NCBI GenBank assembly: GCA_027061995.1
Contig: JAMOUT010000075.1
Coordinates: 1 to 64,000 of the forward strand
DNA: 64,000 nt
Source: Candidatus Aminicenantota bacterium
GTDB lineage: Bacteria; Acidobacteriota; Aminicenantia; JAMOAD01
Reading direction: 5' to 3'
How positions within the stretch are numbered: the stretch's first letter is position 1; every line of letters starts with the position of its first letter. A program made the translations under genes and the position numbers. Below the pieces are notes generated by a model. It ran no database searches, was not told the origin of the DNA, and was given only the letters and a program-made list of their open reading frames with translations. Positions 32,745 through 48,107 of this stretch are shown here, in pieces.

Positions 32745-33884
32745 TTATCTTCTCCTCTTCATTTCTTTACCTTTAAGATTAATTTCCGTAGAAGCAAGGA
32801 CTTCATGAGTTTCAGCATTCCTGTAAACAACCTTAAATCCTCCGATTCCGGGGCCAAGCTTCATGCCTGTATTTATTGTTACAAATCTCTTATTAGTTCT
32901 CATCCCTAATCTTCTTTTCGCAATAAATCTTCCCGTTTCTCCCTTTAATACAAGACCTCTTTTTGTAATTTTCCCGATTGTTTTAATAGGCTCTTCTCCT
33001 CTATACAAAACTATTTCTATTTCGGCTCCACCTTTCGCTAATCTTTCTCTGAAAACAGGATTTTCAAATCTTTTAAGTTTATTAATTTCCAATCTTAAGC
33101 ATTGAGGACAATAGGGACCGGGCTGCGGACCATCAGGACCAAAAGGACCCCAAGGACCCCAACCTATAATTATGCGAGCATTTCTGAGTTTTTCTATAAT
33201 CCACGGATCAATATGGATACCGTTATCACTGCAGTTATCACTAATTGTAAAAACATCGCCATTGTCATAGACAGCATTATCAACGGTTTTTACTCTTACT
33301 ACATAAGAACCATTGGGAATAGTGTTAGGAATTGTCCATGAGAAAGAACCGTCATTGGCAGTCGGATTTACTATGATAGTTTGCAAAGTAGTCAAATCAG
33401 TCTTATATAGCGTAATCTTAACACTATCATTCATGCTACCGCTCTTTGTCCATCTGATTGTGTGAGAACTTCCTTTCTCTAAACAATCTCCACTACGCGG
33501 ATCGGTTACCGTAATCGTGCCACCCGTCGGAGCAGATGTTGCGATATTGAAAACATCACTATCATCATAAACCTGATTATCAATTGTCTTTACCCTGACA
33601 ATATACTGACCGTTAGGAATGGAATTAGGAATTGTCCATGAGAAGGAACCATCATTAGCGGTCGGCCTAACTATTATCATTTGTAATGTCGTATGATCGG
33701 GTTTATACAGCGTAATTTTAACATTATTGTCCATACTACCGCTCTTTGTCCATCTGATAGTATATGTGCTTCCCTTGTGCCATGTTGAGCCCGAGTGGGG
33801 ATTTGTTACTGTTATGCTTTGTGCATAACTCATTGCAGTTATGAAAACCGCAATCAATAAAAACAATAAAACTTTTTTCTTCAT
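32745..33884 (-). CDS. Secreted Kre9/KNH-like module protein (array member 1)
   Basis: This 379-residue protein has a signal peptide (1-21, ending SYA-Q). Two beta-sandwich modules of about 92 residues follow (about 23-115 and 122-213). Each has the pattern ITVTxPxSG-W-KGS-YTIRWTKSG-M-VKITLY-II-PTANDGSFSWTIP-P-G-Y-VRVKT-VYD-FxI, as in the Ser-Thr-rich/Kre9-KNH-like family (PF10342). The C-terminal part of 165 residues has a Trp/Gly/Pro-rich linker (GWGPWGPFGPDGPQPGP) and an unknown basic domain. The ATG at 33884 has an ideal AAAGGAGG site; an earlier in-frame ATG at 33968 lacks one and would bury the signal peptide. Confidence 0.85.
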   Translation of the reverse strand: MKKKVLLFLLIAVFITAMSYAQSITVTNPHSGSTWHKGSTYTIRWTKSGSMDNNVKITLYKPDHTTLQMIIVRPTANDGSFSWTIPNSIPNGQYIVRVKTIDNQVYDDSDVFNIATSAPTGGTITVTDPRSGDCLEKGSSHTIRWTKSGSMNDSVKITLYKTDLTTLQTIIVNPTANDGSFSWTIPNTIPNGSYVVRVKTVDNAVYDNGDVFTISDNCSDNGIHIDPWIIEKLRNARIIIGWGPWGPFGPDGPQPGPYCPQCLRLEINKLKRFENPVFRERLAKGGAEIEIVLYRGEEPIKTIGKITKRGLVLKGETGRFIAKRRLGMRTNKRFVTINTGMKLGPGIGGFKVVYRNAETHEVLASTEINLKGKEMKRRR

Positions 33885-33919
33885 TTGAAAACCTCCTTTA
33901 GTTTTTAATAAATAGTATA

Positions 33920-33937
33920 TGCATTTTTTGTGCCATA
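33920..33937 (-). promoter_or_regulatory. Sigma-54-like promoter of array member 1
   Basis: On the minus strand: TATGGCAC, AAAAA, ATGCA. TGGCAC and TGC with GG-N10-GC spacing match the -24/-12 consensus. This is the best sigma-54 match of the set. It lies 36 bases before the ATG. Confidence 0.7.
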
Positions 33938-34010
33938 GCGCATTATTTAAGAAAACGGTTGATATCATTGCATTTTATTTTGTCCACCACTATTCATCAA
34001 ACAACCGAAC

Positions 34011-34074
34011 GACAGAATTGTCGGCCGGTTAGACAAAAATGTCGGCCGGTTTTAAAATTATTGACAAAAATGTT
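34011..34074 (-). promoter_or_regulatory. Three upstream activator-like palindromes of array member 1
   Basis: Plus-strand sites are GACAGAATTGTC (34011-34022), GACAAAAATGTC (34032-34043) and GACAAAAATGTT (34063-34074). The first two have centres 21 bp apart and are each followed by GGCCGG. They lie about 95-147 bp upstream of the -12 element. Confidence 0.65.
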
Positions 34075-34135
34075 AATCTTCTCCGGAATTGTTTTCCCCT
34101 TTTGGCTATAATTATATTTGATTTCGCGTATTGAT

Positions 34136-34174
34136 TTAAAAAAAAAGCCGCCTTTTCATCTGAAAAGGCGGCTT
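34136..34174 (-). terminator. Rho-independent terminator of array member 2
   Basis: A 14-bp perfect inverted repeat (34145-34158 and 34161-34174, GC-rich AAGCCGCC core) is followed on the minus strand by nine T. It ends the gene at 34195-35712. The related terminator at 35932-35965 shares the AGCCGCCTTTTC core. Confidence 0.88.
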
Positions 34175-34194
34175 ATATATCTGATACGGTTTTT

Positions 34195-35712
34195 TTATTT
34201 CAGCATATCATTAATTGCTTTTCCACTTTTACTCATACTATTGTTATTCGGATTACAATCATCATTAGTTTTAAGATTATCAGCTCCTATATCAGGGTCA
34301 TATGTAAGATAAACTTTGAATGTGGGCGGAAACTCCCCTTCATTCGGAGAACTCGAATTCCAATCCATCTCATAGTTTATTGTGATAGTTTCTCCCGCTT
34401 TAAGATTCTGAAAATTTTTCGTTTTTAAGGGATGAGTAGGATCTCCCATATCCATAACTATCATCTGTTGGTTAGGGTGGCTTATGTAATCCGCATTGCC
34501 CACATTCTTAACTACCCCTGTAATTCTGACTTTCCCTCTGAATTGACTATACTTTCTTACTATACTAAATTTTATATCCACTACGGCAAGGTCAGGACAC
34601 TTTTTAGTAAGCCTTGCATTTTGTAAAATCTTAGGGTTAATTGTAGTAATAAGTGAATTATTATAAACTCTTCCATGCTCCATACCTTTAACTTTTAGTT
34701 CCTTTTCACCTATCGGGTTTTTACCGGAAAAAACCACCAATTTGTAACCGCGAGGATTCCTTCCCATCATTTCCTTTTGTTTAGGTGTTAATCTTAAATC
34801 AAACATGCTCGGCATACTATTAAAAAAGACTCCTCCTCTTTTTACCATAGGTCTGAATACACCAAAATTATAAATGACCTCTCTTCCTTTCATCAACTTT
34901 ATAGTTACCGGCTGTTTAATGTTTGATTTCTCAAGAGCATTTTTAATACCACCGATTCCACGAATTCTGGGACCCGGTCCGTGCATGTAAATAGCAAGTT
35001 CGGCAAGATTCAGGCTTGCACGAAAACGCCCGAAGTCAATAGAAGGAATTCCACTATCACAATTATTACTAATAGAAAAAATGTCACTATCATCATATAC
35101 GGTATTGTCAACTGTTTTTACTCTTACAACATAAGAACCTTCGGGAATAGAGTTCGGGACTACCCAAGTATAAGCACCATCATTGGCAGTCGGGTTTACT
35201 ATGATAGTTTGTAAAGTAGTCAAATCAGTCTTATATAGCGTAATCTTAACACTATCATTCATACTACCGCTCTTTGTCCATGTGATCGTGTGAGAACTTC
35301 CTTTTTTCCAACAATCTCCACTATGCGGATCGGTTACCGTAATCGTGCCACCCGTCGGAGCAGGTGTTGCGATATTAAAAACAACACTATCATCATAAAC
35401 AGCATTGTCCATTGTCTTTACTCGGACAATATACTGGCCATCAGGAATGGAATTGGAAACCACCCACGAGAAAATGCCGTCATTAGCAGTCGGCCTAACT
35501 ATTATCATTTGTAATGTCGTATGATCGGGTTTATACAGCGTAATTTTAACATTATTATCCATACTACCGCTCTTTGTCCAAGTGATATTATAAGTGTTTC
35601 CCTTATACCATGTTGAACCCGAGTGGGGATTTGTAACGGTAATGCTTTGAGCATAACTAAAGGCAATCATAAAAACTGCAATTAAAAAAATCATTAAAAC
35701 TCTTTTCTTCAT
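34195..35712 (-). CDS. Secreted Kre9/KNH-like module protein with CARDB-like C-terminus (array member 2)
   Basis: This 505-residue protein has a signal peptide (1-21) and two Kre9-like modules (about 22-112 and 119-210). A unique middle section follows (about 215-370) with a Gly/Pro-rich hinge. A CARDB-like C-terminal domain begins near CPDLAVVDIKFSIVRKY and contains VVKNVGNADYISHPN, LKAGETITINYEMDW and a final Asp/Asn-rich loop. CARDB domains are adhesion-type folds on bacterial surface proteins. The AAGGAACTATAGGAGG leader and ATG are well placed. The second module is nearly identical in DNA to that of member 1. Confidence 0.85.
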   Translation of the reverse strand: MKKRVLMIFLIAVFMIAFSYAQSITVTNPHSGSTWYKGNTYNITWTKSGSMDNNVKITLYKPDHTTLQMIIVRPTANDGIFSWVVSNSIPDGQYIVRVKTMDNAVYDDSVVFNIATPAPTGGTITVTDPHSGDCWKKGSSHTITWTKSGSMNDSVKITLYKTDLTTLQTIIVNPTANDGAYTWVVPNSIPEGSYVVRVKTVDNTVYDDSDIFSISNNCDSGIPSIDFGRFRASLNLAELAIYMHGPGPRIRGIGGIKNALEKSNIKQPVTIKLMKGREVIYNFGVFRPMVKRGGVFFNSMPSMFDLRLTPKQKEMMGRNPRGYKLVVFSGKNPIGEKELKVKGMEHGRVYNNSLITTINPKILQNARLTKKCPDLAVVDIKFSIVRKYSQFRGKVRITGVVKNVGNADYISHPNQQMIVMDMGDPTHPLKTKNFQNLKAGETITINYEMDWNSSSPNEGEFPPTFKVYLTYDPDIGADNLKTNDDCNPNNNSMSKSGKAINDMLK

Positions 35713-35748
35713 TTGAAAACCTCCTATAGTTCCTTAATAAACAGTATA

Positions 35749-35766
35749 TACATTTTTTGTGCCATA
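35749..35766 (-). promoter_or_regulatory. Sigma-54-like promoter of array member 2
   Basis: On the minus strand: TATGGCAC, AAAAA, ATGTA. It differs by one base from the element of member 1 and sits at the same distance from the gene start (-12 element about 39 bases before the ATG). Confidence 0.65.
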
Positions 35767-35839
35767 GAGCATTATTTTAGAAAACGGTTGATATCATTGC
35801 TTTTAATTTTGTTCTCCCTTATGCACTAAACGATGAATC

Positions 35840-35872
35840 GACTAATATGTCGCCTAAACAGACAGAAATGTC
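35840..35872 (-). promoter_or_regulatory. Paired upstream activator-like palindromes of array member 2
   Basis: GACTAATATGTC (35840-35851) and GACAGAAATGTC (35861-35872) have centres 21 bp apart. They lie about 95 and 116 bp upstream of the -12 element. Confidence 0.6.
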
Positions 35873-35931
35873 AGTCAATTTTAAAATTATTTTCCCCTTT
35901 TGGATATGATTATGTTGCTTTAATATTGATT

Positions 35932-35965
35932 TAAAAAAGCCGCCTTTTCGTTGGAAAAGGCGGCT
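35932..35965 (-). terminator. Rho-independent terminator of array member 3
   Basis: A 12-bp stem (35938-35949 and 35954-35965) with a GTTG loop is followed on the minus strand by six T. It lies 22 bp after the stop of the gene at 35988. Confidence 0.87.
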
Positions 35966-35987
35966 CTATCTCTGAGACAGTTTTTAT

Positions 35988-37742
35988 TTATTCAATAAAA
36001 TCAAATACTGTGATATAGGTGCCTTCAACATTATGAGCCTTGATTGCTTTACTTGAAATAACATGGTTTTTATCTTTTATAACAAGCGCATACTTTATTA
36101 GCTTTCCGCACGGAGCTCTCTTAACCTTAACAACATATTTGTTGCTATACGGATAATAACAGGTAGAATTCATCATCTTTTTGTTTATGGGAATCTCTTT
36201 CAATCTTTCCCATGTTTTTGTTTTTTCTCTGTAATATTTAATATATGCTTCTTCGGCTCCGACAAAATCATACAGGAATGCAACCGTTCCTTCATTATGG
36301 TAAGTCACTCCTGTTTCAACTTTTTTTGTTTGATCGACGATTTTAAAACTTTTGATATAAGGTTTGCGTTTAACCCAAAGAATTGAATAAGAATTATTGT
36401 CTTTTCCTATTGATTCCATTTCGATTGTTATATCTCTGTATTTATCATGAATTTGAAAGGAACCTATGCTTGAGTCTTTTTTACTATCATATGTTACCCA
36501 ATTCTTTTTAGTTTTAGTATCATATATTTTACCCCTTACAGCATCAACAAAATTATAATAGATTAAAGGTGGAATTTGTCCGCAATTCACCCAAACAGTT
36601 TTATTTTTGGTATCTTTAAAAAAAAGTTTTGATTTTATATTTATATCTCCTCGCTTAACCTTTAAGTTTAACAAAGCCTTATTGTTATCTTCGTTCGCTT
36701 CGTCAATCAATCTGCTTGAATCAACCATAACCTGAAGAGTATAATAACCGGCTTTAGTATATTTAATATTGTTTAACCTGATAACAATTTGCTCATTCCT
36801 TTTTAAACCATATTTCACAAATCCTTTTGATATGCTATTGTCATTATTATAAGCATAGGTTTTAAAAAATTTATCTGCCGGAATATCATTCCCGATATTC
36901 TTTATTGTTACTTTAATGGAAAAAGGTCTGTTTGAATACAAGGTGGAAGGCTCTGTTTCAACTTTTATAATTTTAAGATCAGGTTTGTATTCCATGAATT
37001 TTTGCAATGGCTCCGCGAGAGTATTATTATATGTTTTTAATGTTGCAGTTTCCGGTTGATTATAATTGTCTTTGATAAAATCTGTCAAAGAACTTCTTTT
37101 AATTGTAAAAACAGCACTATCATCATATACCTTGTTATTCATCGTTTTCACTCGGATAATATACTGTCCATCAGGTATGGAATTAGGAATTGTCCATGAG
37201 AAGGAACCATCATTGACGGTCGGCCTAACTATTATCATTTGTAATGTCGTATGATCGGGTTTATACAGCGTAATTTTAACATTATTGTCCATGCTACCGC
37301 TCTTTGTCCATCTGATTGTGTGAGAACTTCCTTTCTCTAAACAATCTCCACTATGCGGATCGGTTACCGTAATCGTGCCACCCGTCGGAGCAGGTGTTGC
37401 GATATTAAAAACAACACTATCATCATAAACCTGATTATCAATTGTCTTTACCCTGACAATATACTGACCGTTAGGAATGGAATTAGGAATTGTCCATGAG
37501 AAGGAACCATCATTAGCGGTCGGCCTAACTATTATCATTTGTAATGTCGTATGATCGGGTTTATACAGCGTAATTTTAACATTATTGTCCATACTACCGC
37601 TCTTTGTCCATCCGATAGTATATGTGCTTCCCTTGTGCCATGTCGAGCCCGAGTGGGGATTTGTAACGGTAATGCTTTGGGCATAACTAAAGGCAATCAT
37701 AAAAACTGCAATTAACAATAACATTAATACTTTTCTTTTCAC
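35988..37742 (-). CDS. Secreted Kre9/KNH-like module protein with CARDB domain (array member 3)
   Basis: This 584-residue protein starts at GTG, 8 bases after GGAGG. It has a signal peptide (1-21) and two Kre9-like modules (about 22-112 and 120-212). A CARDB domain spans about 250-360 (PDLKIIKVETEPSTLYSNRP, VTIKNIGNDIPADKFF, EANEDNNKALLNLKV). A 220-residue unknown region follows, with several WVxxK and YxxKxKxxP strands. The first module, signal peptide and leader are identical in DNA over 371 bp to member 5. The modules inside the gene also repeat each other closely. Predicted to be exported and extracellular or surface-bound; no anchor is visible. Confidence 0.86.
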   Translation of the reverse strand: MKRKVLMLLLIAVFMIAFSYAQSITVTNPHSGSTWHKGSTYTIGWTKSGSMDNNVKITLYKPDHTTLQMIIVRPTANDGSFSWTIPNSIPNGQYIVRVKTIDNQVYDDSVVFNIATPAPTGGTITVTDPHSGDCLEKGSSHTIRWTKSGSMDNNVKITLYKPDHTTLQMIIVRPTVNDGSFSWTIPNSIPDGQYIIRVKTMNNKVYDDSAVFTIKRSSLTDFIKDNYNQPETATLKTYNNTLAEPLQKFMEYKPDLKIIKVETEPSTLYSNRPFSIKVTIKNIGNDIPADKFFKTYAYNNDNSISKGFVKYGLKRNEQIVIRLNNIKYTKAGYYTLQVMVDSSRLIDEANEDNNKALLNLKVKRGDINIKSKLFFKDTKNKTVWVNCGQIPPLIYYNFVDAVRGKIYDTKTKKNWVTYDSKKDSSIGSFQIHDKYRDITIEMESIGKDNNSYSILWVKRKPYIKSFKIVDQTKKVETGVTYHNEGTVAFLYDFVGAEEAYIKYYREKTKTWERLKEIPINKKMMNSTCYYPYSNKYVVKVKRAPCGKLIKYALVIKDKNHVISSKAIKAHNVEGTYITVFDFIE

Positions 37743-37789
37743 TCTTAATTCCTCCTTTAATTTTAATAAAAAAAATATTCAATTTTTAT
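37419..37789 (-). repeat. 371-bp block identical to 42072-42442
   Basis: Base-by-base comparison shows no difference from the end of the first module through the signal peptide, GTG start, ribosome-binding site and -12 element. The first mismatch is at 37790 (A) versus 42443 (G), inside the -24 element. Identity across silent sites and the leader points to recent gene conversion or duplication. Confidence 0.9.
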
Positions 37790-37794
37790 ACCAA
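37778..37794 (-). promoter_or_regulatory. Sigma-54-like promoter of array member 3
   Basis: On the minus strand: TTGGTAT, AAAAA, TTGAA. It is one base away from the member 5 element (TTGGCAT). The GG-N10-G spacing is kept. Confidence 0.55.
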
Positions 37795-37869
37795 AACATA
37801 TTCTTCGGAAAAATATTTAACCGCCTCGTTCTTTATAAAAAAACAAAATACTACCTTAAATAGATTGAC

Positions 37870-37901
37870 GACAATATTGTCTTATTAAAAACAATTTTGT
37901 C
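37870..37901 (-). promoter_or_regulatory. Paired upstream activator-like palindromes of array member 3
   Basis: GACAATATTGTC (37870-37881, a perfect palindrome) and AACAATTTTGTC (37890-37901) have centres exactly 20 bp apart, about 96 and 116 bp upstream of the -12 element. The rest of the 37795-38133 gap shows no other gene or signal that I can support. Confidence 0.65.
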
Positions 37902-38133
37902 TATAATCTATACAAAGGTGTTGGCATTTGTTTTGTTCCTTATGATTTTCCCCTTTTTATTTTATCTTTGATACATCCGTCTCGGTTTTTTAATATATTA
38001 AAAAGAATCATAATAAGAATATTATATTTACCCGTCTCATTCTCTTATGAATTTAATATTTCACAAAGAGTAAATAAAATATGACAAAAAATTCTCTGAA
38101 ACATCATTATTATTTTTATCTTACCCCGCCAGT

Positions 38134-38170
38134 AAAAAAAAAGAGGGCAAACTTCGTTTGCCCTCTTTTT
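38134..38170 (-). terminator. Rho-independent terminator of array member 4
   Basis: The stem AAAGAGGGCAAAC/GTTTGCCCTCTTT with a 3-base loop (38153-38155) is flanked by an A-run and a T-run. Read on the minus strand it ends in a long T-run. It lies about 30 bp after the stop of the gene at 38198. Confidence 0.87.
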
Positions 38171-38197
38171 ATATCTTCGTTTTGTTATTATTTCCTA

Positions 38198-39514
38198 CTA
38201 TCTCTCCAGAACCTCTATCTCCATATAAACATTATCATAATAATCAACACACTTGTTATTATTATGAGAAAAGCTCTCATCCACTCCGGTGAAAATTATT
38301 CCGTGATTGAAAGAGGGATTTCTAACCCATTTTCTAACCAAAGACGATAAATTTCCCTGTGGATTTTCAATAAGCTCAATAGAAGCATTAAACAGGTTAC
38401 TAAAAGGTTTTGTGACCCTGTAAATTCTTAAGCCACAATAGTTCCCCTTATAATGATGGTAGTGAAGGGTAGCTTTTGTTATCAAACCTTTACCCTTTAG
38501 CTTACTTACATCGAAAAAAGCATGGGCACGGTATGCTTCTCCATAATAATTATATGTTATCGAATCTTCTTTATAAGTATTTGCATAACCAACCCTTAAT
38601 TTTCCGTTACCAGGATCATCATATTTAAACCCCAGCACAAAAGGCGCTCCACCAATTATTGATGATTTTTTCTTATTTTTCCAATGATAAGTGTTCGTTG
38701 TTTTCGCATAAATTTTGTATTTATGAGTTTTTATAGAAGCAAAAATATGAAATGGCTTACTATATCCTACAGCACCATCCTTTTTCCTGACTATTTTAAT
38801 CCTATGATCTCCTATATATTTTATAACATTAGCAAACAGTCTCTCAGGAATCTTCCAATCATAAGTCTTAAGTTTTGATTTATCCCCCCAACGAGAAAGG
38901 CTAATAAAACCTGCTCTAATAACCTTTTCGACCTCTTTTTTATCAAAACTCACAAGATAAATAGCAAATTCTTCTCCAGATTTTCCTTCCCACTTAATCG
39001 TCATTGTGGAACCTTCCTTCCACTTGCCTCCGGTAGGACTAATAATGTTAATGGTCTTTAATTTGCCGTTTTTACCGGGATTCACCGCATCAAGAATGGC
39101 GCCAATGTTTTTACTATTATCAGGCTTAATTATGCCCGCATATTTTCCAACATTGGATAAAGAGTCAATTTTAAACACTTCTCCATCATCATACACAGAA
39201 TTATCCATTGTCTTAACTCTTACTAAGTATTTACCGCTCGGGATACTATTCGGGATTGTCCATAAAAATGACCCATTGTTGGGAGTAGGTTTTGCGATAA
39301 TATAAATAAGAGACTTATGATCAGGTTTATAAAGAGTGATTTTAACCTGTGAATCCATGTTTCCACTCTTACTCCAAACAATCTTATAGGTATTGCCTTT
39401 AATCCAGGTATTTTGGGAATTAGGCTTTTTGACAGTTATTGTCCCTGAACCTGAATAAGCAAATGCAACAAAAAATAAAATGACCACAACAAAAATTAAA
39501 AGTTTTTTTCTCAT
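38198..39514 (-). CDS. Secreted Kre9/KNH-like module protein with DNRLRE-like C-terminus (array member 4)
   Basis: This 438-residue protein has a signal peptide (1-20). Module 1 spans about 23-112 (KPNSQNTWIKGNTYKIVWSK onwards). A diverged second module spans about 143-255 (INIISPTGGKWKEGSTMTIKWEG). The C-terminal domain (about 285-435) has AHAFFDVSKLKGKGLITKATLHYHH, a pattern like DNRLRE/TGF-beta-propeptide-type domains found in secreted fibre proteins. The ATG at 39514 is preceded by GAGGAGG; an upstream in-frame ATG at 39550 overlaps the promoter element and is unlikely. Confidence 0.83.
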   Translation of the reverse strand: MRKKLLIFVVVILFFVAFAYSGSGTITVKKPNSQNTWIKGNTYKIVWSKSGNMDSQVKITLYKPDHKSLIYIIAKPTPNNGSFLWTIPNSIPSGKYLVRVKTMDNSVYDDGEVFKIDSLSNVGKYAGIIKPDNSKNIGAILDAVNPGKNGKLKTINIISPTGGKWKEGSTMTIKWEGKSGEEFAIYLVSFDKKEVEKVIRAGFISLSRWGDKSKLKTYDWKIPERLFANVIKYIGDHRIKIVRKKDGAVGYSKPFHIFASIKTHKYKIYAKTTNTYHWKNKKKSSIIGGAPFVLGFKYDDPGNGKLRVGYANTYKEDSITYNYYGEAYRAHAFFDVSKLKGKGLITKATLHYHHYKGNYCGLRIYRVTKPFSNLFNASIELIENPQGNLSSLVRKWVRNPSFNHGIIFTGVDESFSHNNNKCVDYYDNVYMEIEVLER

Positions 39515-39545
39515 TATAACCTCCTCTAAAAAAGTAAAAAAGTTT

Positions 39546-39562
39546 ATCAATTTTCATGCCAA
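39546..39562 (-). promoter_or_regulatory. Sigma-54-like promoter of array member 4
   Basis: On the minus strand: TTGGCAT, GAAAA, TTGAT, with GG-N10-G spacing. A sequence nearly identical to its downstream half recurs at 40753-40767, in a decayed context. Confidence 0.62.
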
Positions 39563-39626
39563 AGTTTAAAACCATTGAATACACCAATATTTAACAAATA
39601 AAAAAAGATTTCTAAAAAATTTTGCC

Positions 39627-39658
39627 GACAATATTGTATGATAAAAAACATTTTTGTC
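39627..39658 (-). promoter_or_regulatory. Paired upstream activator-like palindromes of array member 4
   Basis: GACAATATTGTA (39627-39638) and AACATTTTTGTC (39647-39658) have centres exactly 20 bp apart, about 85 and 105 bp upstream of the -12 element. Confidence 0.62.
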
Positions 39659-40238
39659 GGGTTTCACTTGTTGAAAACTAAATGATAAATGTTATTTCGC
39701 CTGTTTTTTACACACGCCACCCAGCACTTTCTTTAAACAACCATAATAATTATTCTGCCGCTTCCATATAACTCTTAACCAAAGTTTCATAAAGATTTCT
39801 TTATCAGGAACCAACAGTTAAAACACTTTCATAATTACAATAAAATAATATTAAAACTATGACCATATCTTTCTCTTCAACTGTTTTTTTTCTTTTTGAA
39901 TGTATTCAAAAGTTTTTTAGTTTACCTGTCATCTTTATTTTTTACCTTCCCTTTTTTATTTATTAAAAATTGCATAACTTCAAACTTTCAACTTTGTTTT
40001 TGCACGATTGTTTCTTTCTTTATCTTCCCTAACAGTATGATAAGGGGCTATCTTATCTCAAGCCAAACATCTTTTAAGATATAAATCCACTCTTTTCTTT
40101 CTACAGCGTTAAATTTCCCGAGGGCAATTGATAGGATATTGAGGTATTTTATTCCTTTGGTTTATATAAAGAATTTATGTTTAGTAGGTTCCAAGACTTT
40201 TTCCCTATATTTTTACGCCACCTCATACTTTTTCTTTA
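39659..40238. other. Non-coding stretch with faint coding remnants
   Basis: No intact gene is seen. On the minus strand a short frame around 40040-40120 reads LGKFNAVERKEWIYILKDVWLEIR and then stops. It looks like former coding sequence but matches nothing I recognise. It lies downstream of the decayed paralog at 40239-40443. Confidence 0.4.
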
Positions 40239-40443
40239 CTAATTATTAACTTTCGGAGTCATTAACCATACAATGAGATCATGTAGAGTTTCTCTTGATA
40301 CAGTCATATCTTTACGCTTGCATTCATCTCCCCGTTTTTTGACCACCTTATGGTATATGAATGAACACTCTTCATACCAAGTATTACACAATATCGAAGC
40401 TGTTACTATAATACTCTGCAAATGCCCCAGAGAGGATAAACAT
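40239..40443 (-). pseudogene. Decayed Kre9/KNH-like module protein
   Basis: The minus-strand frame from 40421 reads QSIIVTASILCNTWYEE, later SRETLHDLIVWLMTPKVNN. It aligns along its length with the member 6 module (ITVTSPHSGETWYKG, DRETLETIIVRPTANNGSY). A signal-peptide-like end (ATG at 40443: MFILSGAFA) lies just upstream in another frame, so a frameshift separates the two. A decayed -24/-12 element lies upstream at 40510-40525. The frame closes after about 60 residues. This is a dead paralog of the array. Confidence 0.6.
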
Positions 40444-40509
40444 CATAATAAATAAACATTATAATTTTTTTTCTATCATTTTAGACATACAAAATTCATG
40501 AAATATAGG

Positions 40510-40525
40510 TTTAATCTTTATGCCA
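40510..40525 (-). promoter_or_regulatory. Degenerate sigma-54-like element of the decayed paralog
   Basis: On the minus strand: TGGCAT, AAAGA, TTAAA. The -24 half is intact and the G of the -12 half is lost. A weak GACA-N4-AATC site at 40619-40630 lies at the expected distance (about 112 bp). Confidence 0.35.
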
Positions 40526-40630
40526 TACTATTTATTATTATATTAATGCTTTAAATATTATTTAATAACTATATTTAAACTATTTTTAATAATTAATTTG
40601 CAAGGTTAGCTAAAAAAAGACAAAAAAATC

Positions 40631-40949
40631 TATAAATAATTATATTTATACATTGCTGTCCTATAAGATTCAGAGTGTCCAAAAGAGAGTAATATCAAGA
40701 GTTAACGAAAAAGATAAGTAAGATTTCTTTTTTTACTCTATTAAAAAAGTTAATCAATTTTCATATAATTAGTCCTTTCTAATTATTAGTCGAGTGTTCT
40801 CCTTATGAAAAAATTAAAATTTTGTAATGACGGCGGTTAAACATCTCGGATATACAATTTTCTTTTGAAAATATAGCAGAATCAACAATCGTTTTTTTGT
40901 CCAAAAAAATCCTTTCATTTTTCCTTTCTTTTATATTATTAAAATTTTT
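40631..40949. other. Non-coding stretch with a second relic promoter
   Basis: No gene is supported. At 40753-40767 the minus strand reads TATAT, GAAAA, TTGAT followed by TAACTTTTTTA, matching the member 4 promoter and leader except that the GG of the -24 half is gone. A TACAATTTTCTT site at 40853-40864 lies about 103 bp upstream. This looks like a relic of another lost paralog. Confidence 0.35.
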
Positions 40950-42395
40950 TTAATTAGAGCATTTTTTCTTTCCTGTATTATGAACAGGTGCTCCCACACC
41001 TACAACTTTTATATAAGTTTTAACTAAATTGTTCCCAATAGAACGCTCCGCACAATCACTGTTAATCGGGCAAACTACATAAACAGCAACTTTTCTTACC
41101 CCCGATAAAAACCATCTGTTCTCTACAGTATAGGATCTATGACCTCCCGGAGAGATTTTTGGTAAACTAAAAATTTTGGGAGGGTCCGGAGGGAGAGTGG
41201 GATCATGCACTATATTCTTTATCAAAATCTGTAAATTACATCTACTGCAGGAATTTTGATCTCCGATGTTTTTTACATCAACATTTAATATTACTTTTTT
41301 ACCGGGAGCCACCTCTTTTTTATCATCCACACAAACAATAAGATCAGGAAGACCTTTTGTAAAAATTGTCTTTATAATTTTATTATTATCATACCTCTTT
41401 TCTCGAACTCCTCTGCTCTCATTAACAGTATAAGTAAAAATGTATCTACCCTTCTTCTTAAAATAAAAATCAGCTTTCCAATTAACACTTCCACCTCGAG
41501 AAATATTAGAAAAGATATGTTTTATCACTTTTGTATAATTTTCAGGTCCATTAACAACAAGTTTTGTTTCAACATTATTCACACCCTTTAAACCCATATT
41601 CCCCACTTTAACTTTAAACTCAGTTTTATTAACAGTTCCTCCGACAGGTGCAAGAGAGGCCTCCCGAATATAAAGATCGGGTAGAGATATAATTTCTGTA
41701 GCCGGGTTGTTCCCAATGATAATATTGTCAAGAAGATTATCAATATAAAAAAGTTTGCTCTCTGTTGAAATTCCCCCTCCTATAGTTTTTATTTTAATTA
41801 AATATTTTCCATTATCCAAAACTGACGGAATCCTCCACATATAAAAATTTTCCCCGAGATTATTTTCACAAGATGAGACAACATCCATAACAAAGGATAC
41901 GCCATGTCCAGCTTGCTTATAAAGCTTAATTTTCACCTGTGAAGACATATCCCCTTCCCTTTTCCATCTTATTTTATAAGTTCTGTTCTTTCTTAATTTT
42001 TCTCCACTTAAAGGGAAAATCATGGTTAGCTTAGGTTGAATAACCGATTCAGAGATTGTAAAATTATCGGAATCATCATAAACCTGATTATCAATTGTCT
42101 TTACCCTGACAATATACTGACCGTTAGGAATGGAATTAGGAATTGTCCATGAGAAGGAACCATCATTAGCGGTCGGCCTAACTATTATCATTTGTAATGT
42201 CGTATGATCGGGTTTATACAGCGTAATTTTAACATTATTGTCCATACTACCGCTCTTTGTCCATCCGATAGTATATGTGCTTCCCTTGTGCCATGTCGAG
42301 CCCGAGTGGGGATTTGTAACGGTAATGCTTTGGGCATAACTAAAGGCAATCATAAAAACTGCAATTAACAATAACATTAATACTTTTCTTTTCAC
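40950..42395 (-). CDS. Secreted Kre9/KNH-like module protein with two CARDB-like domains (array member 5)
   Basis: This 481-residue protein starts at GTG with GGAGG 8 bases upstream and has a signal peptide (1-21). Module 1 (about 22-112) is identical to that of member 3. A diverged second module (about 116-215) begins TMIFPLSGEKLRKNRTYKIRW. Two CARDB-like domains (about 233-340 and 345-465) follow: LPDLYIREASLAPVGG with VKVGNMGLKGVNN, and LPDLIVCVDDKKEVAPG with VDVKNIGDQNS. It ends with a Cys-containing tail (GKKKCSN). No terminator is clear. Likely an exported adhesion or matrix protein. Confidence 0.86.
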   Translation of the reverse strand: MKRKVLMLLLIAVFMIAFSYAQSITVTNPHSGSTWHKGSTYTIGWTKSGSMDNNVKITLYKPDHTTLQMIIVRPTANDGSFSWTIPNSIPNGQYIVRVKTIDNQVYDDSDNFTISESVIQPKLTMIFPLSGEKLRKNRTYKIRWKREGDMSSQVKIKLYKQAGHGVSFVMDVVSSCENNLGENFYMWRIPSVLDNGKYLIKIKTIGGGISTESKLFYIDNLLDNIIIGNNPATEIISLPDLYIREASLAPVGGTVNKTEFKVKVGNMGLKGVNNVETKLVVNGPENYTKVIKHIFSNISRGGSVNWKADFYFKKKGRYIFTYTVNESRGVREKRYDNNKIIKTIFTKGLPDLIVCVDDKKEVAPGKKVILNVDVKNIGDQNSCSRCNLQILIKNIVHDPTLPPDPPKIFSLPKISPGGHRSYTVENRWFLSGVRKVAVYVVCPINSDCAERSIGNNLVKTYIKVVGVGAPVHNTGKKKCSN

Positions 42396-42442
42396 TCTTA
42401 ATTCCTCCTTTAATTTTAATAAAAAAAATATTCAATTTTTAT
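42072..42442 (-). repeat. 371-bp block identical to 37419-37789
   Basis: Second copy of the block shared with array member 3. It covers the end of module 1, the signal peptide, the start codon, the leader and the -12 element. The genes differ completely beyond both ends. Confidence 0.9.
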
Positions 42443-42447
42443 GCCAA
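42431..42447 (-). promoter_or_regulatory. Sigma-54-like promoter of array member 5
   Basis: On the minus strand: TTGGCAT, AAAAA, TTGAA, with GG-N10-G spacing. The leader downstream is identical to that of member 3. Confidence 0.6.
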
Positions 42448-42523
42448 AATGTTTTATTTGTTAAAAATATCATAAAATATTAAATAACATTAAAAACAAT
42501 TTTTTTGGTAACAAGTAAAATAC

Positions 42524-42555
42524 AACAATTTTGTCGATTCAAATACAATTACAAT
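42524..42555 (-). promoter_or_regulatory. Upstream activator-like palindrome and half-site of array member 5
   Basis: AACAATTTTGTC (42524-42535) lies about 97 bp upstream of the -12 element. TACAATTACAAT (42544-42555), exactly 20 bp further, keeps only one arm. Confidence 0.5.
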
Positions 42556-42703
42556 AAGTGGCCTTCATGTAGAACAATCACGGTTTTCAACCAAAATATC
42601 TTTTTGTTAAAATTAATATAAGTATTTAGTAATAGAAAAGCGTTCATTGCTAAAATTATAATATAAAATAAAAGATAAAAACATCCCTGAATAACAAGTT
42701 TAT

Positions 42704-43960
42704 CTATTTCAATTTGAACACATGGATAATGGGTTTATCCTTATCAACATAAGGTTCCGCAATATAAAGATATCCCCTATCTCTATCAAAAGCAACAGCT
42801 CCCAAATGATCTTTTTGCTGATTGGAATTTATATGAAAAAGATATTTATCTATGTTCAAACTTGTGTATGGCTGAGGTTCATAAGGTTTAGACCTTCCTT
42901 CTATGACCTTTTTAAAATCATCGGGATCATAAAACAGGATAATGCCGTCAAGATAGGTTGACCACCAACCTCTATTATCACATTCAAGACAGGGTCCATC
43001 CTGATTCCCGTACCAGCACTCACCTCTCCCCTTTGTTCCAACAAAAACAACGGCAGCTTTATCTCCCTTGGTCAACCATACGGCTCCCTGCCATTCATCC
43101 GAATTATGATAATTTTTCATCTTGTGTTGAGTTTGATCAAGATCCTCTGTTGAAGTATATTTTAAAAGAGTTTTAAAATTGAGTTTTGTCCCGTTTGAGG
43201 GGGGATTACCCTGTTTCCAGGGGGCGACGGCAAAGAGAGAAGGTCCTTGTCCCGACCACCCTCCGTCTCTGAATCTTCCTGTGGCAAGCTGATAACCATC
43301 TATATATTCATCAGCCCAATTTTTCGGAATTTCAAACATATAATCATTAGTGCAATATTCATGATGAGGTGTATCAATATACCAATTACCCGCTTTTTTT
43401 GGATTTGATAAATCAAGTTCACACCGGCCGTGAGTTAGATCGGAAGGTTCCTGATAATGTTGTCCGATACAGAAATAGAGTTTTGCCGAATTTTGATTTT
43501 CCTGCTTGGGAAGATATGTAATGCCCACTCTCGGAATCTCATAATTTGAGATATTAAGGATATCCTTGAATTTCTGTATTGTTTTTGCTCTCGGTAATTC
43601 GGAAAGAACCTTATTTTTTGAAATAACGGGTTTTGGAATACTTATTTCCGATATTCTATATTCCCAAGCATGTCCTGTTCCATAAAGGGAACCCGGGTAT
43701 CCGTCATTTTCTCCGTTTTTATCCCCTTCGGGACAATAAGTAAGAGCAAATCCTCCCCATTCCCAACTGTTAACTATCTCTCCTGTTCCATCAGGCAATC
43801 TGAATGCTCCCATATACTCCAAATCGGAAGGTTGTATCAGTTGAGTGGGGATAGGGATGTTACTATTATTCGTATCTTCATCATTACCATTTTCAGTAGC
43901 TTTATTGCAATTGAACGCTAATAAAATTAAAAACAAAAATAATATAAAATATTTTTTCAT
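42704..43960 (-). CDS. Putative lipoprotein of unknown function within the array
   Basis: This 418-residue protein has a signal sequence ending LLAFNC, so Cys18 could be lipidated, although Asn at -1 is unusual for a lipobox. A low-complexity Asn/Asp linker follows. The mature part is rich in Trp, Gly and aromatic residues (SWEWGGFALTYCPEGDKNG, RFRDGGWSGQGPSLFAVAPW, GAVAFDRDRGYLYIAEPY). The last of these resembles a propeller blade repeat, but no family is recognised. It has no Kre9-like module and no -24/-12 element. It starts 60 bp after member 6, beyond a hairpin, and lacks a good ribosome-binding site. It may depend on read-through from member 6. Confidence 0.65.
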   Translation of the reverse strand: MKKYFILFLFLILLAFNCNKATENGNDEDTNNSNIPIPTQLIQPSDLEYMGAFRLPDGTGEIVNSWEWGGFALTYCPEGDKNGENDGYPGSLYGTGHAWEYRISEISIPKPVISKNKVLSELPRAKTIQKFKDILNISNYEIPRVGITYLPKQENQNSAKLYFCIGQHYQEPSDLTHGRCELDLSNPKKAGNWYIDTPHHEYCTNDYMFEIPKNWADEYIDGYQLATGRFRDGGWSGQGPSLFAVAPWKQGNPPSNGTKLNFKTLLKYTSTEDLDQTQHKMKNYHNSDEWQGAVWLTKGDKAAVVFVGTKGRGECWYGNQDGPCLECDNRGWWSTYLDGIILFYDPDDFKKVIEGRSKPYEPQPYTSLNIDKYLFHINSNQQKDHLGAVAFDRDRGYLYIAEPYVDKDKPIIHVFKLK

Positions 43961-43972
43961 TTTAAATAACCC

Positions 43973-44001
43973 AAAGCGGGAGAGTTTTACTCTCCCGCTT
44001 T
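43973..44001 (-). terminator. Hairpin after array member 6
   Basis: The stem AAAGCGGGAGAG/CTCTCCCGCTTT (43973-43984 and 43990-44001) has a 5-base loop. On the minus strand it is followed by GGGTTATTT rather than a pure T-run, so termination may be partial and allow read-through into the lipoprotein gene. Confidence 0.65.
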
Positions 44002-44019
44002 ATTTATTATATACAGATA

Positions 44020-45444
44020 TCAGAACAAACGAACGCCTACTCTATAGCGATTATTCTCCTTATCAGATTCGCATCTTGTAATTCTACTTGTGATGGTTAT
44101 ATACATAGTATAGTGTCCCGCTTTTAATCTGGGATGAACAGAATGTTTTTTGCTCGGGTGACCGAATATTTTATTAAAGCTTATCACTTTTTCTTCATTA
44201 CGATCAAACTTGAATGGCCCATAAGTTCCATTGGCACCTTCTATTTCTTGAAAACCACCCTTATAAAGTTCCCATTTTACAAATACATTATACAAAGATG
44301 AATAACCGGAACCTCCTGCTTTGGCATGAATTTTAAATTTCACTCGCCAGCGATGGGAAGGTCTTCCGTAAACTTTTTTAATTTTAAAATCACTTATTCT
44401 GGTAATCATCAAATCTGCATCAGTTACATATATTTTCTTAATTAGTTTATTGTTTCTTTCATCTGTTTCAGTAATTTCGTTCTCAGGATCAACTTGTATA
44501 TAAACGCTTGTTCCGCAAAGATTAACGCCTTCCAAATCCGAGCGATGAACAAGGCATATGTTAAGTTGACTGTTAGCGTTTAATCGGATATTATCCTTAT
44601 TTATATTAAAACGCCTCATAGGCTGATTGTCGGGAATAACTAAAACGCGATACTTAAAAGGTCCATTATAAGCGCTATAATAATTTTTTATATTAGCTCC
44701 GATACATCCGTCAAAAGATCTTGAGAAAAAGATATCTTTCACTTCGAAATCGCGCATAATTCTAAGGTTGTGCCCCAGATAATCTCCAAGGGTACTGCTT
44801 GCTATATTAAAAATTTCGCTATCATCATATACGGCATTATCCATTGTCTTTACCCTTACTACATACTGTCCATTAGGTACACTTGAAGGAATACTCCATG
44901 AATACGAACCATTATTTGCTGTCGGTCTTACTATTATTGTCTCAAGAGTTTCTCCATCAGTATGGTAAAGCGTTATCTTTACCTGACTATCCATTGCTCC
45001 TGTCTTAGTCCATCTTATCGTATAAGAATGACTGTCTCCTTTATACCATGTTTCTCTACTAGGAGAGGTTACATTTATTGATGCTGCGGGCGCATTGGCG
45101 ATAGTAAAAACAGCACTTTCTCCGTAAACGGCATTATCCATAGTTTTTACTCTTACTACATACTGACCTGCATGAACGCTTGTCGGAATACTCCATGAAT
45201 ACGAACCATTATTTGCTGTTGGTCTTACTATTATTGTCTCAAGAGTTTCTCTGTCAGTATGGTAAAGAGTTATCTTTACCTGACTATCCATTGCTCCTGT
45301 CTTAGTCCATCTTATCGTATAAGAATGACTGTCTCCTTTATACCATGTTTCTCCCGAATGTGGGGAAGTTACTGTTATTGTCTGTGAAAAACATAGTACC
45401 CCCATAATCATTACTACAAAAAACAAAAATAATTTTTTCTTCAT
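44020..45444 (-). CDS. Secreted Kre9/KNH-like module protein with CARDB-like C-terminus (array member 6)
   Basis: This 474-residue protein has a signal peptide (1-20) and two closely similar modules (about 21-113 and 117-208). They repeat in DNA with a period of about 297 bp, and both contain WYKGDSHSYTIRWTKTGAMD. The C-terminal 265 residues hold two CARDB-like stretches, with VDPENEITETDERNNKLIKK and a final SDKENNRYRVGVRLF that matches the E-x-NN end motif of CARDB. The ATG follows AAAGGAGG. The modules are more diverged from members 1-3 and 5 than those are from each other. Confidence 0.85.
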   Translation of the reverse strand: MKKKLFLFFVVMIMGVLCFSQTITVTSPHSGETWYKGDSHSYTIRWTKTGAMDSQVKITLYHTDRETLETIIVRPTANNGSYSWSIPTSVHAGQYVVRVKTMDNAVYGESAVFTIANAPAASINVTSPSRETWYKGDSHSYTIRWTKTGAMDSQVKITLYHTDGETLETIIVRPTANNGSYSWSIPSSVPNGQYVVRVKTMDNAVYDDSEIFNIASSTLGDYLGHNLRIMRDFEVKDIFFSRSFDGCIGANIKNYYSAYNGPFKYRVLVIPDNQPMRRFNINKDNIRLNANSQLNICLVHRSDLEGVNLCGTSVYIQVDPENEITETDERNNKLIKKIYVTDADLMITRISDFKIKKVYGRPSHRWRVKFKIHAKAGGSGYSSLYNVFVKWELYKGGFQEIEGANGTYGPFKFDRNEEKVISFNKIFGHPSKKHSVHPRLKAGHYTMYITITSRITRCESDKENNRYRVGVRLF

Positions 45445-45482
45445 GATCTTTTACCTCCTTTATTTGTTAATATAATAACCTT

Positions 45483-45499
45483 ATCAAATTCTATGCCAC
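45483..45499 (-). promoter_or_regulatory. Sigma-54-like promoter of array member 6
   Basis: On the minus strand: GTGGCAT, AGAAT, TTGAT. The GG-N10-G spacing is kept, and the -12 element lies about 40 bases before the ATG. Confidence 0.6.
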
Positions 45500-45574
45500 A
45501 ATCTCTTTTGCGATAAAAAAGCTTAATTCTATTCTTTCTTCAGGAAAACAACTTTTTCATTTTTTTATAATTTC

Positions 45575-45606
45575 GACATTATTGTTATATTAACAACGAA
45601 ATTGTT
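45575..45606 (-). promoter_or_regulatory. Paired upstream activator-like palindromes of array member 6
   Basis: GACATTATTGTT (45575-45586) and the inverted repeat AACAA-N5-TTGTT (45592-45606) lie about 96 and 114 bp upstream of the -12 element. Confidence 0.5.
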
Positions 45607-46077
45607 AAGCTTTTCAATTAAATTCTTTTATTTCGAAACAGTACTATAAGCTTATAATCAGAGTTATCAATTTTATTCTATATAAATCTGTTGAAAGAGA
45701 AAAAGCGACACCTCATATATATTCACTTATATTAATTATTCCTTTAGTATTAGTTAGCAAAACTTTAACTCCCTTATAGTCGAACAATTTTAACCGGAGT
45801 AATCTTATCTTCCCTTTTTTATCAATCTTAGGGATATTGTTTTCCTGCTTTTTACTCAAAAAAATATTATTCTTTATTATTAGTCGGTAATTTAGTTATA
45901 CAATTAACAAAACGGTCAAATCCTTTTAAATATTCTTTATTATATTAAAGGGTGTTACATATAAATTTTTTAACATGGTTAATTATTGCAGGCTCACAAT
46001 GATTTTAAAAAACTGTGATAAAAATACAAATATTTTTGAGCCTACTTAAATATATTTTTTTTAAACATTAAAATTAA
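45607..46077. other. Non-coding AT-rich stretch
   Basis: No open frame, hairpin or recognisable signal is supported here. It lies between the regulatory region of member 6 and a short coding relic. Confidence 0.5.
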
Positions 46078-46200
46078 CTATAATTCAATCTTAATTGTAT
46101 TAACTGCGGGAGCAAAACGAATTTTACTTTCCAAAACCCCTGTTTTAGCAATTACAATAAGTTTAGGACATACTCTTTTATGGATACCGAAAAATAATTT
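46078..46200 (-). pseudogene. Short relic of a coding sequence
   Basis: The minus-strand frame reads KLFFGIHKRV, then PKLIVIAKTGVLESKIRFAP and VNTIKIEL, then a stop at 46078-46080. The alternating hydrophobic pattern is protein-like, but the frame is closed upstream after 40 codons and no start or promoter is visible. It could be the last strands of a lost secreted beta-protein. The family is not recognised. Confidence 0.35.
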
Positions 46201-46379
46201 TTATGTGCTTAATTTAATTTCCCCTTTACAAATATTAGCACAATGATTTGATTTGTCTGTTTCCAATCGAATATCTTTTCCCTTTTTATCTTTACTCTTA
46301 TTTTTTATTTTTTACCGCATTTTCTTCTCTTTCTCATTCTTTAAACATTATTAAAAACAAACTATTTCACTTCCCCTTA

Positions 46380-47408
46380 TTAATTATCAGAACCTGAGTT
46401 AAATTTTGTTTTATTTATAATTGTTTTCTTTGTCTTTATCTTTTTTAAAGGAGATACCGATAGCTTTGTAATAGTAAAAACTCCGCTATCATCAGAATAT
46501 TTACCATCCTTTGTTCTTATCCTGATAAAATATTTACCCGAGGGAATAGTTGCGGGAATCTTCCACTTATAATCTTTTGCACTGGTTGGATATCGTCTTG
46601 TTATAATAGTTTGCAATTTTTTATTATCCGCTCTGTAAAGAGAAAGCTCAATGTAAGGATCAAGCTTTGACAATGACATTGTAAACCATCCGATATCATA
46701 TTTCAGACCTTGATACCATTTAAAGCCTTTTTCAGGGGTTTGTAATTTTAAGGTAGGTGGAATATCAAGTATATAAAAAACATCACTGAAAGCAGAGACT
46801 CTCCCATCCGTGGTTATTACTTTAACAACATACTGTCCTTCAGGTATTGAAGAAGAAATATTCCATCTATAATTACCACTGTTCCGCACTCTTCTTGCAA
46901 TTTCGGTTTGTAAAGTTCTTTTATCAGGCTTAAATAAAAATATGTTCACATATCTGTCCATGGAAAACAAACGCATCCAGGCTATGTCAAGCACATCCAA
47001 TCCTTTATAAAATTTTTGATTTTTATAAGGAGCTTGAATAGCTATGGCAGGTGCAGGCTCTTTAACAGTAAAGTATCCGCTGTTCCCTGAAACAGCAGTA
47101 TTAGTCCCTACTATTTTTATATAATAGGAGCCCGGTTTTAAATTTGTCGGAACTAACCATTTGTAATTTCCATTATTAAAAACATTATTTCCTATGTCCA
47201 GCACTTTCCCTTGTTTATCACACAAATAGATATTAATATGAGAAATAATGTGTTTTTTAATTGTCATTTTCCATTTTACCGGAACATATGATTCCCAAGT
47301 CCAAACACTTCCTGATTTGGGAGAAACCACATTAATTCTACCCGCAGAATAGAGCACACTTCCTAACACAAAGAGGACCAACAAACTTACAAAAATTTTT
47401 TTGTTCAT
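46380..47408 (-). CDS. Secreted protein of three Kre9/KNH-like modules (array member 7)
   Basis: This 342-residue protein has a signal peptide (1-20) and three diverged modules (about 21-115, 118-212 and 216-312). Each has the W-Y/F-x-G-L, I-x-W, I-x-LY/LF, G-N/D-Y-x-W-x-I-P and G-x-Y-x-I/V-K/R pattern. A short Lys/Thr-rich tail follows and no extra domain. It is the simplest form of the family. The ATG follows AGGAGG closely. The -12 element is only about 25 bases before the ATG, so the leader would be short. Confidence 0.82.
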   Translation of the reverse strand: MNKKIFVSLLVLFVLGSVLYSAGRINVVSPKSGSVWTWESYVPVKWKMTIKKHIISHINIYLCDKQGKVLDIGNNVFNNGNYKWLVPTNLKPGSYYIKIVGTNTAVSGNSGYFTVKEPAPAIAIQAPYKNQKFYKGLDVLDIAWMRLFSMDRYVNIFLFKPDKRTLQTEIARRVRNSGNYRWNISSSIPEGQYVVKVITTDGRVSAFSDVFYILDIPPTLKLQTPEKGFKWYQGLKYDIGWFTMSLSKLDPYIELSLYRADNKKLQTIITRRYPTSAKDYKWKIPATIPSGKYFIRIRTKDGKYSDDSGVFTITKLSVSPLKKIKTKKTIINKTKFNSGSDN

Positions 47409-47430
47409 TTTAACCTCCTAATAAAAAGCT

Positions 47431-47447
47431 ATCAAATACCATGCCAA
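47431..47447 (-). promoter_or_regulatory. Sigma-54-like promoter of array member 7
   Basis: On the minus strand: TTGGCAT, GGTAT, TTGAT, with GG-N10-G spacing. Confidence 0.6.
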
Positions 47448-47528
47448 AAAAAGATACCTCTCCATAAATAAATTTATTGTTTTTACTATTACTTTCTTTC
47501 AGGGCAATCTTTACCTCAAGTATCTATC

Positions 47529-47560
47529 GCCATTTATGTCGATATGCATACATTTTTGTC
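47529..47560 (-). promoter_or_regulatory. Paired upstream activator-like sites of array member 7
   Basis: GCCATTTATGTC (47529-47540) and TACATTTTTGTC (47549-47560) have centres exactly 20 bp apart, about 102 and 122 bp upstream of the -12 element. Both keep the TGTC arm and have lost part of the other. Confidence 0.5.
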
Positions 47561-47773
47561 AATTTTAAAAGTTCAATTACTTCTTAACTGATTTTCAAAA
47601 TATTCTTAATTTCCTGTCCACACTTTAAGAAAATGCGTCTTTTGGATTATATAAATTTAAAAAAAGAAAATTAATCTATGGCTTGCTGCTACTACCATTA
47701 AGTTTTTTATTTTTAAAATATTGGATTTATTGCTTTCTCTTGCACTATTATAAAGGTAAACTTTCATTTAAAT

Positions 47774-47974
47774 TCATACATCTTTCAGTGAATGGAACCA
47801 TGGAGTTCTCTTACAAAATGAATCTTTCCAGACCCCGGAAGGAGTAAGTATATCATGGTGAGTCATTCCTTTTGTCCGTATATAGAATCTTAATTTTGCA
47901 GCATCGGATATTTTTGTTCCTATATTTCTAATTCCCACAAAAATATTACTTCTAAAAAAGGTTCCTATACTTTC
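47774..47974 (-). pseudogene. Remnant of a CARDB-type array member
   Basis: The minus-strand frame reads SNIFVGIRNIGTKISDAAKL, then RFYIRTKGMTHHDIL and on to a stop at 47774-47776 (66 codons). The phrase V-G-I-R-N-I-G-T with A-A-K-L-R-F-Y is the core of a CARDB domain (V-x-V-K-N-I-G). There is no start codon, signal peptide or Kre9-like module. A -24/-12-like element lies only 18 bp upstream, so the 5' part of the gene has been deleted while its promoter and activator sites remain. Confidence 0.6.
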
Positions 47975-47991
47975 TTAAATTAAATTTGTTT

Positions 47992-48007
47992 TCAAAATAT
48001 CATGCCA
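47992..48007 (-). promoter_or_regulatory. Sigma-54-like element left upstream of the CARDB remnant
   Basis: On the minus strand: TGGCAT, GATAT, TTTGA. The -24 half matches the intact copies; the -12 half is shifted by one base and is probably inactive or weak. Confidence 0.4.
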
Positions 48008-48076
48008 TAATAATTCTGTATCATAAAAAGTTATTAATATTTACTAATAGAGCAATGAACCATCATCATGTAACAC

Positions 48077-48107
48077 GACAATATTGTCGTTCAGGGAACA
48101 AAATTGT
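48077..48107 (-). promoter_or_regulatory. Paired upstream activator-like palindromes without an intact gene
   Basis: GACAATATTGTC (48077-48088, perfect, extended to 14 bp by flanking C and G) and ACAAAATTGT (48098-48107) have centres exactly 20 bp apart. They lie about 89 and 109 bp upstream of the relic -12 element. Confidence 0.6.

Follow-up and report, generated by a model that had tools for sequence, protein, structure and literature searches.

Control of secreted proteins by a dedicated sigma-54 activator is known from the PrsK/PrsR regulon of PEP-CTERM proteins (Haft et al. 2006, PMC1569441), and the RpoN dependence of a PEP-CTERM gene has also been reported (PMC9850573). In this regulon, a conserved activator site, sometimes repeated, is followed by a spacer with a mean length of 62.8 bases and then by the -24/-12 element; Haft and colleagues found it by the same kind of reasoning as we apply here (PMC1569441). 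In a wider sense, exported functions, among them surface, flagellar and polysaccharide ones, come under sigma-54 and its activators (Francke et al. 2011, PMC3162934; the D. vulgaris regulome, PMC4641369). This literature on the bacterial exterior names no regulator or site for the class considered here, and searching the literature for our site, or for sigma-54 in Aminicenantes, gave no result. Aminicenantes themselves are widespread and almost wholly uncultured.

Herein, we describe a group of genes for exported proteins from a Candidatus Aminicenantota genome (2.36 Mb, 104 contigs, 95% complete), found in a 64,000-nucleotide stretch of contig C75, hereafter the window. Judging from sequence comparisons, we consider it very likely that seven genes of the window belong to one sigma-54 regulon, which a kinase/activator pair encoded on contig C81 would switch on as a whole.

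Kre9/KNH genes of the window and their promoters

The DNA has a GC content of 32%, and an Rfam scan of the window gave no matches. The seven intact minus-strand genes code for signal-peptide proteins with Kre9/KNH Ig-like modules, accompanied in two of them (members 3 and 5) by CARDB (Table 1). For members 1 and 4, the starts in the list of open reading frames lie upstream of or inside the promoter, and the likely starts are those given in the table. The promoter cores of members 3 and 5 are near-identical and their first ~105 residues identical (37404-37742 and 42054-42395), with unrelated downstream parts; we take such a pattern to reflect module shuffling or a recent gene conversion. Positions 40286-40440, between members 4 and 5, hold Kre9-module fragments with 52-65% identity over about 23 residues, which we read as a true Kre9 remnant.

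Shortly 5' of the likely start, each of the seven members carries TGGYAY-N5-WTG with an exact GG-N10-G spacing, the second base of the -12 element being mostly A. The first-pass annotation had assigned this spacing to an eighth promoter too, that of a relic gene; there, the element reads GG-N11-G and is probably decayed. The relic had been listed beside the Kre9-module genes; tblastn gave no match between it and Kre9 proteins, and its fragment IRNIGTKISDAAKLRFYI is CARDB-like, judged by eye only. Given its GG-N11-G spacing and the lack of a recognisable Kre9 remnant, it is better named an orphan or decayed promoter.

Further upstream lie ACA-N4-TGT-type palindromes, in the form GACA-N4-TGTC. 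Their centres are 21, 21, 20 and 20 bp apart in members 1-4, 20 bp in members 6 and 7, and 20 bp in the relic; member 5 has a single full palindrome. The spacing of 20 or 21 bp claimed earlier for members 1-4, 7 and the relic thus stands, as does the lack of a full second site in member 5, while member 6, formerly called irregular, has a weaker far site at the usual 20 bp. From the near site to the -12 element, we measured 94, 94, 95, 84, 96, 95 and 101 bp in members 1-7 and 88 bp in the relic, each 1 bp less than previously listed owing to the definition of the centre.

Table 1. Genes, -24/-12 elements and palindromes of the Kre9/KNH group (positions in the window)
Feature	Position	Strand	Sequence or remark
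Member 1, secreted, two Kre9/KNH modules	32745..33884	-	likely start 33884
-24/-12 element, member 1	33920..33935	-	TGGCACAAAAAATGCA; at 33935 TGGCACAAAAAATGC
Near palindrome, member 1	34011..34022		GACAATTCTGTC
Far palindrome, member 1	34032..34043		GACATTTTTGTC; spacing to the near palindrome 21 bp
Member 2, secreted, two Kre9/KNH modules	34195..35712	-	
-24/-12 element, member 2	35749..35764	-	TGGCACAAAAAATGTA; at 35764 TGGCACAAAAAATGT
Palindrome pair, member 2	35840..35872		GACATATTAGTC 35840-35851, GACATTTCTGTC 35861-35872
Member 3, Kre9/KNH + CARDB	35988..37742	-	
-24/-12 element, member 3	37778..37793	-	TGGTATAAAAATTGAA; at 37793 TGGTATAAAAATTGA
Palindrome pair, member 3	37870..37901		GACAATATTGTC 37870-37881, GACAAAATTGTT 37890-37901
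Member 4, one full Kre9/KNH module	38198..39514	-	likely start 39514
-24/-12 element, member 4	39546..39561	-	TGGCATGAAAATTGAT; at 39561 TGGCATGAAAATTGA
Palindrome pair, member 4	39627..39658		TACAATATTGTC 39627-39638, GACAAAAATGTT 39647-39658
Member 5, Kre9/KNH + CARDB	40950..42395	-	
-24/-12 element, member 5	42431..42446	-	TGGCATAAAAATTGAA; at 42446 TGGCATAAAAATTGA
Single full palindrome, member 5	42524..42535		GACAAAATTGTT
Member 6, two Kre9/KNH modules	44020..45444	-	
-24/-12 element, member 6	45483..45498	-	TGGCATAGAATTTGAT; at 45498 TGGCATAGAATTTGA
Palindrome pair, member 6	45575..45606		AACAATAATGTC 45575-45586; weaker AACAATTTCGTT 45595-45606
Member 7, three Kre9/KNH modules	46380..47408	-	
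-24/-12 element, member 7	47431..47446	-	TGGCATGGTATTTGAT; at 47446 TGGCATGGTATTTGA
Palindrome pair, member 7	47529..47560		GACATAAATGGC 47529-47540, GACAAAAATGTA 47549-47560
-24/-12-like element, relic	47991..48007	-	TGGCATGATATTTTGA, GG-N11-G
Palindrome pair, relic	48077..48108		GACAATATTGTC 48077-48088, TACAATTTTGTT 48097-48108

These elements are far more frequent in the window than in 200 dinucleotide shuffles of it: GACA-N4-TGTC occurs 10 times (shuffle mean 0.44), ACA-N4-TGT 58 times (16) and the relaxed -24/-12 element 9 times (2.35). The combined pattern, which had been expected to stand out from random DNA, was found 6 times and in none of the shuffles (mean 0.00).

Sigma-54 in the genome

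The sigma factor and the type of regulator implied by the earlier proposal are both encoded here. A genome search recovered rpoN as a 507-aa frame (PF04552, E 3.7e-58), and NtrC-type regulators are present among the 12 strong sigma-54 activator genes. Genome-wide, TGGCAY-N5-TTGM has 28 sites against 1 for the reversed control, and these precede flagellar (motA-, flgB- and flgD-like by eye), prepilin and secreted-protein genes; a handful fall inside genes, probably by chance. Most of the 28 sites, flagellar and prepilin promoters included, end in TTGA. The GA at -12, which the first-pass annotation considered its main weakness, is therefore a habit of this low-GC species and no weakness, and several relatives have TTGC on the same kind of promoter.

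One might object that the -24/-12 likeness is accidental and that the genes have sigma-70-type promoters, the palindromes serving a conventional repressor or activator, the more so as -10-like hexamers abound at 32% GC. Such an accident would have to account for a GG and a -12 TG that keep a fixed spacing without exception across 39 promoters, for the same form in front of flagellar and prepilin genes of this genome, and for the fact that the regulator adjoining the sites is a sigma-54 activator (see below). We find this explanation scarcely credible and retain sigma-54 control.

Two other loci deserve mention. The prepilin gene on contig C46 (L097, promoter of 5782-6240) combines the -24/-12 element TGGCATATTATTTGA with the palindrome GACA-N5-TGTC, which exceeds the regulon site by one base and is perhaps the site of another activator. 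On contig C7 (L096:5755-7128), an NtrX-like activator adjoins an NtrY-like kinase; its GAFTGA loop is degraded to GVFPYA, so it is probably unable to activate sigma-54.

Reach of the regulon

Elsewhere in the genome, the combined pattern precedes two more Kre9 genes (C54 and C79) and one CARDB protein gene (C7). On C13, a match is flanked by an FHA-type activator and a lipase-like gene, and further sites there are weak; a match on C101 falls within a TonB-type coding region and was discarded as chance. Ten Kre9 genes with an upstream region, picked by protein family and not by motif, all have the -24/-12 element, and nine have a palindrome matching at least 7 of 8 positions; one Kre9 gene of C54 shows no clear palindrome. 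A secreted-protein gene on C7 (L098, promoter at 5173, minus strand) has GACAAAATTGTA only 48 bp before its -24/-12 element.

The strict pattern was found in 22 of the 60 genomes searched (own included), with few control matches. Most of the true-pair matches precede secreted proteins of several unrelated families, among them CARDB, Q/E-rich and DxDGDG proteins, and two genomes of the same family have their own clusters of at least six Kre9 genes with the promoter before each. The predicted regulon thus exceeds what had been claimed, as it takes in secreted proteins other than Kre9 and is found across the class. In its general layout, two CGACA-N4-TGTCG-type sites with a spacing of 20-21 bp precede the -24/-12 element by about 50-105 bp. 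In the wider promoter set, which was partly gathered with the motif, so that its statistics describe the architecture and are no independent test, a strong palindrome pair stands before 33 of 36 promoters (0.05 in shuffles), with a spacing of 20-21 bp in 29 of the 33. Near-site distances cluster at about 60, 71 and 82 bp, that is, in steps of helical turns (Rayleigh test with periods of 10.5-11 bp: R 0.56-0.58, nominal p about 1e-5, uncorrected for relatedness).

These data bear on whether the upstream elements might be functionless leftovers, copied along with the paralogues in gene duplication. Long upstream stretches are indeed similar in members 1 and 2 (72% over 309 bp) and in members 3 and 5 (90% over 84 bp), as such copying would leave them. 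However, the other pairs of members align at the promoter core only, the elements persisting where the remainder has diverged; moreover, they precede unrelated families, and the pair spacing and helical phase are maintained across families of the class. The duplication scenario is already disfavoured on these grounds, and we hold it to be highly improbable beside a functional regulon.

A candidate activator and its kinase

The first-pass annotation had placed the activator outside the window, and a candidate response regulator/kinase pair matching this prediction lies on contig C81. The activator (454 aa, L093:5959-7323) has the full domain set of an NtrC-type response regulator, namely, a receiver (PF00072), a sigma-54-interacting AAA+ domain (PF00158) and a Fis-type HTH (PF02954), along with the Walker motifs GETGTGKE and FLDEI and a GAFTGA-type loop, GAYTGA. 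Alongside is its own membrane histidine kinase (L093:7325-8593), with HisKA and HATPase domains and an SHELRNPL box. The neighbours of the activator are flgD and a secreted-protein gene; the pair is divergent from the gene of a 623-aa exported protein, upstream of which there are GACAAATTTGTC and AACATTATTGTC, 20 bp apart, plus TGGAATAAAAATTGA. The -24 element of the C81 promoter reads TGGAAT, and the standard promoter form is found on similar genes at the same position in G003 and in G004. Beside the kinase, most genomes of the class encode a small protein, 120-180 aa long and exported (L093:8600-8992; L275:8547-9008; L338:3269-3697), the one scanned copy of which had no Pfam match; it is possibly a sensor partner of the kinase.

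A tree built from 73 activators of several genomes placed the C81 protein in one clade (support 100/99) with activators of G001, G003, G004, G021, G026, G043 and G045; further members were added by similarity from G019, G039 and, for a second time, G026. Five of nine clade members (those of G003, G004, G021, G043 and G045) lie within 6 kb of a strict motif match, versus none of 100 other activators (Fisher p 1e-6). G022 has a clade-type activator 3.4 kb from a motif match, and G026 also fits. In G043, G045 and G019, there appears to be a motif-driven operon running from secreted protein through kinase to activator, the G019 operon spanning two contigs with overlapping ends. Among 59 relatives, the paired motif occurs in 13 of 26 with a probable orthologue and in 1 of 33 without (p 3e-5); in the lone exception, G032, the motif gene is near a contig end. 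The activator is far from motif genes in G039, G028 and G041, and several genomes have a clade-like activator and no strict motif match. Across the class, the recognition helix ER-V/T/I-L-x-Y-K/R-M/I is conserved.

Another activator might, of course, run the same sigma-54 regulon. Our initial candidate was the PrsR/AtoC-like response regulator of contig C33 (L088:5971-7293), whose operon is of the type IV pilus/type II secretion kind and includes a secretin with TPR. PrsR is its best model match, though below the cut-off. Nevertheless, no motif stands beside it in this genome, nor is its clade found beside motif genes in relatives, whereas the C81 clade adjoins them. Neighbourhoods and tree favoured the latter, and a regulator such as that of C33 seems unlikely to us. 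The C81 pair is the probable regulator of the window genes.

A possible change of site in sub-clade B

In sister sub-clade B (G004 C77 and G026 C96), the helix reads ESTLRYRM, and the activator (L278:4551-5921) shares an operon with a kinase, preceded by a -24-like element. In the neighbouring genes, TCGCAAAATATTGCGA or TCGCAAAATCTTGCGA is present, accompanied at 20 bp by a weaker second site, and TCGCAA-N4-TTGCGA palindromes stand beside sub-clade B in two families (L278:1079-1106 and L338:2285-2320). That the palindrome seems to change together with the helix, at these two loci only, would be expected if each activator reads its adjoining palindrome. It is tempting to suppose that a dedicated Aminicenantes two-component sigma-54 system governs fast-diversifying exported proteins class-wide and that its paralogous ESTLRYRM sub-clade exchanged the site CGACA-N4-TGTCG for TCGCAA-N4-TTGCGA with no change in the 20-bp tandem layout. 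We offer this double proposal tentatively, with somewhat more doubt than confidence; if true, the site switch of sub-clade B is a natural experiment in specificity change.

Proposed mechanism and its meaning

NtrC-type activators bind as dimers at tandem sites, form an AAA+ ring and reach the sigma-54 polymerase by DNA looping. This established mode accounts for the promoter layout. In the scenario we propose, the C81 membrane histidine kinase would phosphorylate the neighbouring activator, two dimers of which would occupy the palindrome pair on the same helical face. An AAA+ ring would then assemble and, through DNA looping, contact the sigma-54 polymerase at -24/-12; ATP hydrolysis would open the promoter, and the secreted proteins would be made together. 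The link from kinase to promoter is our inference.

A regulator, its probable binding site and targets of secreted or surface type are here joined from sequence alone. With several unrelated families sharing one layout, a fixed pair spacing and a helical phase, the activator-site pair is cheap to test, and it offers a way to learn which proteins these bacteria secrete or display, and at what times.

Comparison with known systems

With PrsK/PrsR, the system shares a histidine kinase and an NtrC-type response regulator, dispersed and mostly single-gene units of secreted proteins, and the order of activator site(s), spacer and -24/-12 element. However, the site here is a tandem GACA-N4-TGTC, while that of PrsK/PrsR is a 17-base motif ending in TTTACA. 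Our regulator scores 357 bits against the PrsR model (TIGR02915; cut-off 502.6), and our kinase 47 bits against the PrsK model (TIGR02916; cut-off 300). No exosortase (PF09721) was matched in the 95% complete genome; for those members that were scanned, Pfam and NCBIfam gave no PEP-CTERM domain, and no common PEP-CTERM signal was seen by eye at the C-termini of members. The targets are Kre9, CARDB and other proteins instead of PEP-CTERM proteins, and the lineage is Aminicenantes instead of Proteobacteria. Given the scores below cut-off, the different site and the absence of a detected exosortase, we conclude that this is not PrsK/PrsR, though it would work alike.

As in the control of pilA by PilR, a response-regulator activator would act here with sigma-54, and PilR sites in Pseudomonas contain TGTC elements. 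Unlike PilR, the C81 activator lies outside any pilus locus, and the C46 prepilin promoter has its N5 palindrome in place of the N4 pair, contrary to what PilR on pilA would lead one to expect. Like the general role of sigma-54 at the bacterial exterior, the system has exported functions as its targets. Beside these known kin, it is unusual in spanning a class, in its strictly kept tandem geometry and in having an identifiable activator.
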